A stretch of 13,947 bases of DNA from an uncultured beta proteobacterium (lineage in GTDB: Bacteria > Pseudomonadota > Gammaproteobacteria > Burkholderiales > Burkholderiaceae_C). The position numbers were made by a program, and so were the translations under genes. This document shows, piece after piece, positions 1,062 through 2,411 of the stretch. The number at the start of each line of letters is the position of its first letter. Within the stretch, counting starts at the first letter, position 1. The notes below the pieces were generated by a model, which saw nothing but the letters and a program-made list of their open reading frames with translations, did no database searches and had not been told where the DNA came from. Where the stretch lies: assembly GCA_903870955.1 (NCBI GenBank), contig CAIQEX010000067.1:1-13947 (forward strand), written 5' to 3'.

Positions 1062-2192
1062 TTACGCTTGCAACAAAATGCGCAACATTCGGCGCAGTGG
1101 CTCGGCAGCGCCCCACAGCAACTGGTCGCCAATGGTGAAAGCGCCCAAATATTCCGGTCCCATGGCCATCTTGCGGATGCGGCCCACGGGGATCGTCATA
1201 GTGCCCGTCACGGCAACCGGCGTCAGATCCTTGATGGTGGCTTCACGGGTATTGGGAACGACTTTGACCCACGGGTTATCGGCGGCGATCATGGCTTCGA
1301 TATCGGCCACTGGCACGTCTTTTTTCAGCTTGAAGGTCAATGCCTGGCTGTGGCAACGCATGGCACCCACGCGCACGCAAAATCCGTCGACCGGCGTTTC
1401 GACCGAGCCGAAGTTTGCACCTTGACCCAAAATTTTGTTGGTCTCGGCCTGGCCCTTCCACTCTTCCTTGGACATTCCATTGCCCAGATCCTTGTCGATC
1501 CAGGGAATCAGAGAACCGCCCAGTGGCACACCAAAGTTGGCTGTTTCGGATGCAGTAAGGGCACGTTGTTTGGCGATGACCTTGCGGTCGATTTCCAGAA
1601 TTGCGCTCTTGGGGTCATCCAGCATGGATTTCACTTCGGCGTTCAGCGTGCCGTATTGGGTGAGGAGTTCGCGCATGTGTTGCGCGCCGCCACCGGAGGC
1701 AGCCTGGTAGGTCTGTGTGGACATCCATTCGACCAGGCCCGCCTTGTAGAGCGCGCCCACGCCCATCAGCATGCAACTCACGGTGCAGTTGCCACCGATC
1801 CAGTTCTTGCCACCGTTAGCCAGTGCTTTTTGGATGACCGGCATGTTGACCGGATCCAGAATGATGACCGCATCCTTTTCCATGCGCAGCGTGGACGCGG
1901 CATCAATCCAGTGACCGTTCCAACCCGCTGCGCGCAGTTTGGGGAAAATCTCGGTGGTGTAGTCGCCACCTTGGGCGCTGATGATGATTTCGCAACGCTT
2001 CAGGGCGTCGACGTTGAACGCGTCCTGCAGCTTGGTTTCGTTCTTGGCCAGCGCCGGGGCGGTACCACCGGCGTTGGACGTGGAAAAGAACAGGGGCTCG
2101 ATCAGATCGAAGTCACCCTCTTGCACCATGCGGTCAATCAATACCGAGCCGACCATGCCACGCCAGCCGACCAATCCTACCAACTTGCTCAT
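1062..2192 (-). CDS. asd: Aspartate-semialdehyde dehydrogenase
   Basis: 376 residues, close to the Gram-negative type (E. coli 367). The enzyme reduces aspartyl phosphate with NADPH to aspartate semialdehyde in the cytoplasm, the branch point to lysine/diaminopimelate, threonine, isoleucine and methionine. Visible features: N-terminal nucleotide-binding loop [11 protein letters not shown] (residues 8–18), catalytic cysteine C136 in GGNCTVSCM, and the substrate/acid–base pair R274 and H281 in [11 protein letters not shown] with the spacing of E. coli R267/H274. The ATG at 2192 has AAAGGG (2200–2205) 7 nt upstream. It is separated from leuB by a terminator and a 300-bp leader, so it probably has its own transcript. 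The leader encodes a Thr/Lys-rich peptide (2296–2397), which suggests control by end-product amino acids. Identity is certain; regulation is inferred. Confidence 0.97.
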
Positions 2193-2249
2193 TTCATCGC
2201 CCTTTCAAAATAGTAAACAGTGCCGTACACGATTGCTTGCAGGCTGCTT

Positions 2250-2291
2250 GCCCGGCTCGTCTGGCCGGGAGGGGCGCACGACGAACCAGGC
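2250..2291 (-). promoter_or_regulatory. Two mutually exclusive RNA stems in the asd leader
   Basis: On the minus-strand RNA the segment GCCTGGTTCGTC (2280–2291), starting 4 nt after the stop of the leader ORF, can pair over 12 positions (10 Watson–Crick, 2 G·U) with GACGAGCCGGGC (2250–2261). The same downstream segment can instead form a 6-bp all-GC hairpin with CCCGGC (2264–2269), loop CAGACGA. The two stems cannot coexist. A ribosome at the leader stop codon would cover the first arm and favour the short hairpin; one stalled on the Thr/Lys codons would leave it free. No U-run follows the short hairpin, so it is not a classical intrinsic terminator. Rho, or effects on asd translation, would be needed. 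Confidence 0.45.
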
Positions 2292-2295
2292 TGGA

Positions 2296-2397
2296 TCAGC
2301 CCTTAATGGTCGTGGTTTTGGTGGAAGTTGCACGCACAGGCACACCGACCGCAGCGGCGGGTGTGGAGTTCAGGTTGAACAATTGGGCGTGAAACAT
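2296..2397 (-). CDS. Putative Thr/Lys-rich leader peptide upstream of asd
   Basis: A 33-codon ORF begins with MFHAQLFNLN and ends ATSTKTTTIKG-stop. Codons 24–32 read T-S-T-K-T-T-T-I-K: five Thr, two Lys and one Ile out of nine, in the position where stalling codons lie in amino-acid leader peptides such as thrL. Those amino acids are all made from the product of asd, which starts 103 nt downstream. A self-complementary stretch inside the ORF (arms 2341–2346 and 2360–2365, with inner stem 2349–2351/2355–2357) could be a pausing hairpin. No Shine–Dalgarno is visible; a TACAAT -10 box lies 8 nt before the ATG, which would make the mRNA leaderless or nearly so. A competing frame from an ATG at 2407 (34 codons) lacks this codon pattern. 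The peptide family is not one I recognise, and translation is unproven. Confidence 0.5.
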   Translation of the reverse strand: MFHAQLFNLNSTPAAAVGVPVRATSTKTTTIKG

Positions 2398-2405
2398 GGG
2401 GTTGC

Positions 2406-2411
2406 ATTGTA
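2406..2411 (-). promoter_or_regulatory. Candidate -10 element for the asd leader transcript
   Basis: TACAAT on the minus strand (5 of 6 consensus), with the leader-ORF ATG 8 nt downstream at 2397. I see no good -35 at 16–18 bp; the corresponding sequence is GGCTCA. The element sits just after the leuB terminator, as expected for a separate asd transcription unit. Confidence 0.4.

Follow-up and report, generated by a model that had tools for sequence, protein, structure and literature searches.

The aspartate-semialdehyde dehydrogenase gene (asd) of the betaproteobacterial DNA analysed here (the window, 13,947 nucleotides in its whole length) is preceded by a leader and an RNA which, judged from sequence, make up an unannotated cis-regulatory element of two halves, a run of Thr, Lys and Ile codons and a conserved RNA with competing helices. 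Our reading, to which we give a probability of about 0.7, is that the asd leader is a ribosome-mediated attenuator sensing charged Thr, Lys and Ile tRNAs. It is very probable that the leader has a function in cis, and the element has the look of one that raises Thr/Lys/Ile synthesis when these amino acids run short. If so, it would represent a control point for aspartate-family amino acids across a large betaproteobacterial family, with three end products read by one short run of codons; the records affected would include those of Rhodoferax, Comamonas, Acidovorax, Hydrogenophaga, Limnohabitans, Ramlibacter, Roseateles, Caldimonas and others.

The gene order on the minus strand of the window is leuD, leuB, a 33-codon ORF and asd, the identities of asd, leuB and leuD being confirmed by NCBIfam. 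The ORF (minus strand, 2397..2296) is translated as MFHAQLFNLNSTPAAAVGVPVRATSTKTTTIKG before its stop, and its codons -10 to -2 read T-S-T-K-T-T-T-I-K, with Thr/Lys/Ile in 8/9, in line with the initial annotation, which had singled out a Thr/Lys/Ile-rich ORF ahead of asd; the distance from its stop to the asd ATG, given there as 102 nt, is 103 nt on recounting (2295-2193). Folding of 2403-2193 is better than that of 200/200 dinucleotide shuffles (z -3.19), the asd Shine-Dalgarno sequence GAAAGGGC is unchanged across 27 aligned relatives, and Rfam gave zero matches anywhere in the window at gathering scores. An inverted repeat with a T-rich tail lies between leuB and the leader (about 2477-2437, minus strand); it is probably the leuB terminator, setting leuB apart from the leader-asd unit in the window. 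The features are as follows:

1062..2192, minus strand: asd, aspartate-semialdehyde dehydrogenase (TIGR01745, NF005144).
2190..2206, minus strand: asd Shine-Dalgarno GAAAGGGC (2206-2199) and start codon (2192-2190), from the sequence.
2248..2307, minus strand: whole conserved RNA core matched by covariance model R1 (72.3 bits, E 1.4e-15, a score from the window's genome, the window sequence having belonged to the R1 training set).
2250..2261, minus strand: segment 3, GACGAGCCGGGC, from pairing and swap tests.
2264..2269, minus strand: segment 2', CCCGGC, the alternative partner of segment 3, from folding and a swap test.
2272..2277, minus strand: GCGCCC, complementary to the asd Shine-Dalgarno region, with which it pairs in folds with the stop region masked.
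2280..2291, minus strand: segment 2, GCCUGGUUCGUC, partner of segment 3 in the proposed ON state, from pairing, folding and swap tests.
2288..2302, minus strand: P0, a possible short hairpin across the stop codon (2302-2298 with 2292-2288), from the pairing in 61 sequences.
2296..2397, minus strand: 33-codon leader ORF, conserved among relatives, with 64 loci having a free ORF and 60 loci having the leuB end in its place.
2299..2328, minus strand: regulatory codons T-S-T-K-T-T-T-I-K-G preceding the stop, from codon and frame statistics.
2406..2411, minus strand: -10-like hexamer TACAAT, 8 nt ahead of the leader ATG, from the sequence.

Upstream regions of asd were fetched from the window's genus and family (158 loci); an asd start was recognised in 141/158, among them L014 with an upstream sequence of just 13 nt, and in the 17/158 loci without a recognised start the element is present in 14 and absent in 3 (L054, L087, L090). 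One hundred asd regions were taken from top-scoring relatives down to about E 1e-213, and divergent asd types are therefore under-represented among them. An upstream ORF end with at least four Thr/Lys/Ile codons out of nine occurs in 124 of the 141 readable regions, as a separate leader ORF in 64 loci (as in the window) and as the end of LeuB in 60, both this count and the codon tables referring to ORFs preselected for at least 4/9 such codons. Within these preselected rows, Thr, Lys or Ile stands at codons -2 to -7 in 75-100% of the sequences, and the Thr/Lys/Ile fraction (rows with at least 4/9) is 0.81 and 0.78 in frame vs. 0.01 and 0.12 in the shifted frames. At the same preselected leader ends, the third base after AA is A/G (Lys) 146 times and C (Asn) once, the third base after AT is T/C/A (Ile) 107 times and G (Met) three times, and AC tolerates every third base, AG being found once. 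Third bases thus obey the genetic code, which speaks for selection on the amino acids; the leader ORF is real, and its end is selected as codons. That the leader end keeps Thr/Lys/Ile codons with synonymous variation before asd had been anticipated in the initial annotation and is borne out by 124/141 readable regions; the frameshifts or missing enrichment in relatives that it had named as counting against the idea were looked for and are not what these 124/141 regions show.

Preselection for at least 4/9 codons does not enter the chance test, the model-match test or the noncoding-only scan. The first of these covered about 22,900 ORF ends (at least 20 open codons) in 1.13 Mb of loci L001-L058 and L200-L318: among the ORF ends lacking a rough downstream-element pattern (about 22,900), seven have at least 7/8 Thr/Lys/Ile at -2 to -9, and four of these seven are asd leaders overlooked by the pattern (L013, L019, L048, L052), the remainder being three (L029, L030, L203); among ORF ends with the downstream pattern, 125 have at least 7/8 Thr/Lys/Ile codons. 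In the scan with the noncoding pattern only, independent of codons, at least 119 stretches were found in the named genomes, 90 of them followed closely by asd on the same strand. Among the matches listed, 89 of these 90 have at least 5/9 Thr/Lys/Ile codons in front of the stop that precedes them; where several stops lay inside 24 nt, the best one was taken, in matches as well as in controls. The exception, L279, with asd downstream and codons absent, lies at a contig edge; also among the matches listed, two further codon-bearing stretches lie at contig edges, and of the other 27 none (0/27) has the codons.

Since 61 of the sampled loci formed the training set of covariance model R1, matches among these 61 are such by construction. 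Within the window's family R1 matches 199/240 genomes and 115/133 genera (E<=0.001), with a single match per genome except for three genomes with two. A search of 300 genomes of the order gave 14 matches, of which the 10 strong ones (E<1e-10) all fall in the window's family; the four weak matches outside the family (E 0.001-0.009) have no asd or leuB nearby. All strong R1 matches that were given loci (37/37) lie directly ahead of asd, and R1 matches in loci unselected for codons carry Thr/Lys/Ile codons in 14/14 cases. The lone exception among the loci tested with R1, an element without codons, is L035 from the window's genus, where a weak, decayed-looking RNA copy (about 1376-1447, E 1.5e-8) has no Thr/Lys/Ile end; leader and RNA seem to have been lost together there. 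Taken jointly, the codon, frame and linkage tests point to a leader carrying pathway end-product codons, as expected of an amino-acid attenuator.

The RNA beyond the stop is strongly conserved in both sequence and pairing, and consists, from 5' to 3', of P0, segment 2 (CCGGUUCGUC), GCGCCC or UCGCCC, segment 2' (CCCGGC) and segment 3 (GACGAGCCGGG), the last being able to pair with segment 2 or with segment 2'. RNAalifold, run on MAFFT alignments that spanned the whole gap, returned no consensus of any use, so the helices were assessed by named pairs, swapping and position-dependent folding. Standard pairs fill 93% of the cells of P0 and helix 2:3 in 61 sequences, vs. 21-44% in a slid control; pairs changed on both sides amount to 5/14, a value equalled in 6/500 shuffles, while the covariation score is only modestly over shuffles (20/500) and pair types are not (404/500). 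The swap test compared the mean energy of own and permuted partners in 119 sequences over 2000 permutations: for 2:3, no permutation was as good (0/2000) and the own partner beats the median foreign one in 74/119; for 2':3, the result is 0/2000 overall and 3/2000 in the LeuB class, the own partner beating the median foreign one in only 56/119. P0 gave 1/2000 over all rows and was unsupported within classes (free ORF 1857/2000, LeuB 368/2000). Its pairs are retained in 97.7% of the cells in the 61 sequences, with one fully compensated change (G-C to A-U, in L143); it is weak in the free-ORF class and absent from the minimum-energy fold of the window, where its bases pair with CAGCCU after segment 3. 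In L061, L073, L157 and similar LeuB-class loci, an additional complementary pair around segment 3 is formed by UGGACCCC with GGGGUCC, and in other LeuB-class loci by ACAAACCC with GGGUUUGU; the additional pair in this LeuB subgroup is possibly a different off structure.

The effect of ribosome position was modelled by masking the RNA to successive points that mimic a ribosome and folding the remainder, nascent RNA being RNA that ends just past segment 3. In nascent RNA masked to the stop, the mean probability of 2:3 is 0.90 for free ORFs and 0.92 for the LeuB class; with masking to +12 it is 0.41 and 0.29, respectively, and at +15 it is 0.03 in both. The flip point lies at +12/+13 in 40/53 free-ORF sequences and at +8 to +14 in 57/58 LeuB sequences, and 2:3 never rises above 0.5 in 10/63 and 2/60 sequences of the two classes. 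With no ribosome, P0 rivals 2:3 in some sequences (mean P0 0.34 for free ORFs, 0.41 for LeuB). The switch was not seen in the complete RNA of the LeuB class, where 2:3 reaches only 0.00-0.21 at every ribosome position; this class would need folding during transcription, because its complete RNA mostly folds away from 2:3. For a ribosome whose A site holds the stop codon, the toeprint distance should put the leading edge at about +12, close to where the fold flips, and completion of the leader should therefore weaken 2:3, while a hold in the last codons should protect it. Mutually exclusive helices chosen by ribosome position, the other property expected of an attenuator, are thus predicted by the computed folds.

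The mechanism that we propose would work as follows. Ribosomes would translate the leader, that is, the 33-codon ORF in the window and the leuB end in many relatives. With Thr, Lys or Ile in short supply, the ribosome would stall in the last codons with the stop region covered and segment 2 free, segment 2 would pair with segment 3, and asd would be expressed. When they are plentiful, the ribosome would come to the stop with its leading edge over the beginning of segment 2; with this start covered, segment 3 would pair with 2' instead, and the rest of segment 2 together with GCGCCC could form pairs with the Shine-Dalgarno and start codon of asd, so that asd translation would be held down.

The translation-level output is the least certain part of this scheme. 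Terminator-like sites in the leader-asd gap are found in 5/64 free-ORF loci (shuffled mean 1.6) and in 0/60 LeuB loci, and the window has none after the leader, its only ones lying upstream, between leuB and the ORF; since such sites are rare, thrL-type termination is unlikely and the output is probably asd translation. With masking to +12, the free segment 2 and GCGCCC fold onto the asd Shine-Dalgarno/start codon in the window, and the same fold appears in many of the 21 sequences shown. The best duplex of segment 2 and GCGCCC covers the Shine-Dalgarno or AUG in 60/60 free-ORF and 55/59 LeuB sequences, but it outperforms dinucleotide shuffles (5% level) in no more than 26/60 and 17/59; by the swap test it co-varies in the LeuB class (0/2000) and does not in the free-ORF class (895/2000), and it is absent in the subgroup of L061, L073 and L157. 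Opening of the Shine-Dalgarno in the complete RNA is 0.49 at +6, 0.35 at +12 and 0.44-0.45 at 0 and +3 for free ORFs, and flat for the LeuB class (0.51 to 0.50). Translation control seems to us the most likely output, and a transcription-level output is its main rival. In that alternative, one of the two states of the same codon sensor and RNA switch would promote Rho-dependent or pause-linked termination before asd; we consider it a good deal less probable, as the rarity of terminator-like sites (5/64 and 0/60) and the co-variation of the duplex in the LeuB class argue against it, although the duplex is only moderately supported and missing from a subgroup, and nascent RNA shows the exchange of helices most clearly.

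The threonine leader thrL ends in pathway end-product codons, which are followed by competing helices, and precedes an aspartate-pathway gene. The asd leader resembles this attenuator (Rfam RF00506, Thr_leader) in its codons, helix logic and pathway, and differs from it in the gene, in the RNA, in having Lys codons too and in the rarity of intrinsic terminators. At asd, a thrL-type transcription attenuator of the classical form, which would use an intrinsic terminator, is highly improbable: codon placement and helix logic are identical and the five free-ORF sites exceed the shuffled mean, but 59/64 free-ORF loci and 60/60 LeuB loci have no terminator-like site, and those of the window lie on the wrong side of the ORF, toward leuB. 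The initial annotation, which proposed a thrL-like ribosome-mediated attenuator, was largely right in the attenuator idea; codon placement and leader are supported, and likeness to thrL in mechanism is not. It did not mention the post-stop RNA, the -10-like hexamer or the use of the LeuB C-terminus as leader in about half of the sampled loci. When Rfam was searched with relaxed thresholds (up to E 5) over 2150-2480, nothing matched the element itself and Thr_leader was the only candidate; it scored 17.3 bits vs. a gathering score of 55 (E 0.69), through its 3' end only and on the hairpin after leuB, and was rejected.

The codon run of 60 loci is the C-terminus of LeuB itself, e.g., GDAVVAAITKTITKG or AITTTKTIKS before the stop. 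Over 150 loci with both genes, some genomes being counted twice, the last nine LeuB residues hold on average 0.85 Thr/Lys/Ile where a separate leader is present (range 0-2, n=100) and 7.28 where LeuB ends at the element (range 5-8, n=46), the class with neither (n=4) including L264, whose LeuB tail sits at a larger distance. Family members without the element have LeuB ends such as AALNAQG (L090) and ARLKAQG (L145, L158); as LeuB without an adjoining element has no tail, the codon run accompanies the RNA and not LeuB. According to record titles and leader types, LeuB carries the tail in Roseateles, Caldimonas, Piscinibacter, Methylibium, Azohydromonas, Caenimonas, Xylophilus and Malikia, the leader is an ORF of its own in Rhodoferax, Hydrogenophaga, Acidovorax, Comamonas testosteroni and Limnohabitans, and both forms are seen in Ramlibacter. 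In a LeuB tree of weak resolution, the window's LeuB falls among loci from the same genus, and Rhodoferax records are placed nearby too; this tree needs 11 label changes per class (9 with the two main classes only), of which well-supported branches require just 2. The LeuB-tail form (ending in AITKTITKG) is also seen in L013, a locus from the genus of the window, so the leader form can change inside one genus.

We regard it as probable that this is an attenuator class in which a full-length enzyme from a different pathway supplies the leader with its C-terminus, here the Thr/Lys/Ile tail of LeuB, and that tail and free ORF have been swapped more than once. In the LeuB-tail form, the ribosome completing leuB would report the aspartate-family amino-acid supply to asd. 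If true, an attenuator leader can be built into, or split from, the end of a working enzyme gene, small-ORF searches alone would overlook LeuB-tail leaders, and odd LeuB C-terminal tails would be explained as regulatory rather than enzymatic. That the peptide or LeuB tail acts as a protein (in enzyme function, as an arrest peptide or as a free small protein), with the RNA as a separate matter, is very improbable: one clade shows some conservation in the N-terminal half of the free ORF (MFAARPF.LN), but residue order at the leader end is free to vary while the Thr/Lys/Ile composition is retained, which fits codon sensing and not an arrest peptide, and the tail tracks the RNA, not LeuB. We give just as little credence to a purely RNA-level element (riboswitch or protein-binding site) with an incidental codon pattern, since the high conservation of the post-stop RNA in sequence and pairing, which would suit it, is met by third bases that obey the genetic code and by the in-frame Thr/Lys/Ile enrichment of the preselected rows.

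The free-ORF counterpart of the LeuB tail would probably be leaderless. All 64/64 free-ORF loci have a -10-like hexamer 3-13 nt before the start, the best hexamer within that range being chosen per locus; it is TACAAT in 51 and has a gap of 6-9 nt in 58. A sigma-70 scan of the window gave 0 promoters, with no good -35. From the spacing of the hexamer, a leaderless or nearly leaderless mRNA is predicted, starting at about 2400-2397, and the leader ORF of the window is thus probably leaderless. The transcript of the Sinorhizobium meliloti trpL leader peptide (peTrpL) starts at its ATG (PMC7298713); the likeness to the free ORF lies in the leaderless start, only predicted for the latter, and the differences in the Trp codons, the transcription terminator and the alphaproteobacterial host.

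Other systems share single traits with the asd leader. Translation of the end of the upstream gene controls the next gene in rph-pyrE of E. coli (PMC2784333), which is like the LeuB-tail form in using an upstream gene's end and unlike it in that the rph end is not described there with regulatory amino-acid codons, regulation is by an attenuator and uracil/UTP, and there is no swapped-in tail. The LEU element before actinobacterial leuA resembles the asd leader in pairing with the Shine-Dalgarno box; there the leucine codon run itself pairs, whereas the asd case would use a separate post-stop RNA. Of the known systems, thrL comes nearest in logic, rph-pyrE in using the end of an upstream gene, S. 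meliloti trpL in the leaderless start, and the LEU element in Shine-Dalgarno pairing. Attenuator-like sequences before Streptococcus mutans asd are cited in PMC2864571, in whose table the Burkholderiales-1 RNA candidate (2010) is named with no Rfam accession. The asd RNA motif of Lactobacillales (RF01732) shares the gene and belongs to another phylum, a leader peptide not being mentioned for it there; as a candidate it gave no match in the window at gathering and none in 2150-2480 up to E 5. The open-access literature searched contained no betaproteobacterial asd leader or attenuator and no LeuB-tail leader (sources consulted also span PMC2965389, PMC5343134, PMC1262725, PMC12548453).

Some further observations concern the distribution of these leaders. 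Among 20 genomes of other families, 19 have no ORF end with more than 4/9 Thr/Lys/Ile in the approximately 200 nt before asd, and the remaining one (L320) has a Thr/Ile/Lys-rich ORF end ahead of asd. The family of L320, of the same order, has Thr/Ile/Lys-rich ends 77-78 nt before asd in 3/3 genomes searched (L339, L340, L341), followed by a hairpin that differs from the element of the window's family; these leaders may be either a distant relative or a second origin. In 13/37 strong loci (L161, L162, L165, L173-L175, L180, L181, L184, L187, L188, L198, L199), asd is only 66-72% identical to that of the window and leuB, where found, about 84-89%, so that asd looks displaced or fast-evolving; the divergent asd of these 13 loci is still preceded by the same leader RNA. 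Finally, records titled Anaerolineae (L201), Chitinophaga pinensis (L240) and Akkermansia muciniphila (L265) have the element before asd, and are probably misbinned or mislabelled contigs, given that the LeuB of L265 groups with Limnohabitans.
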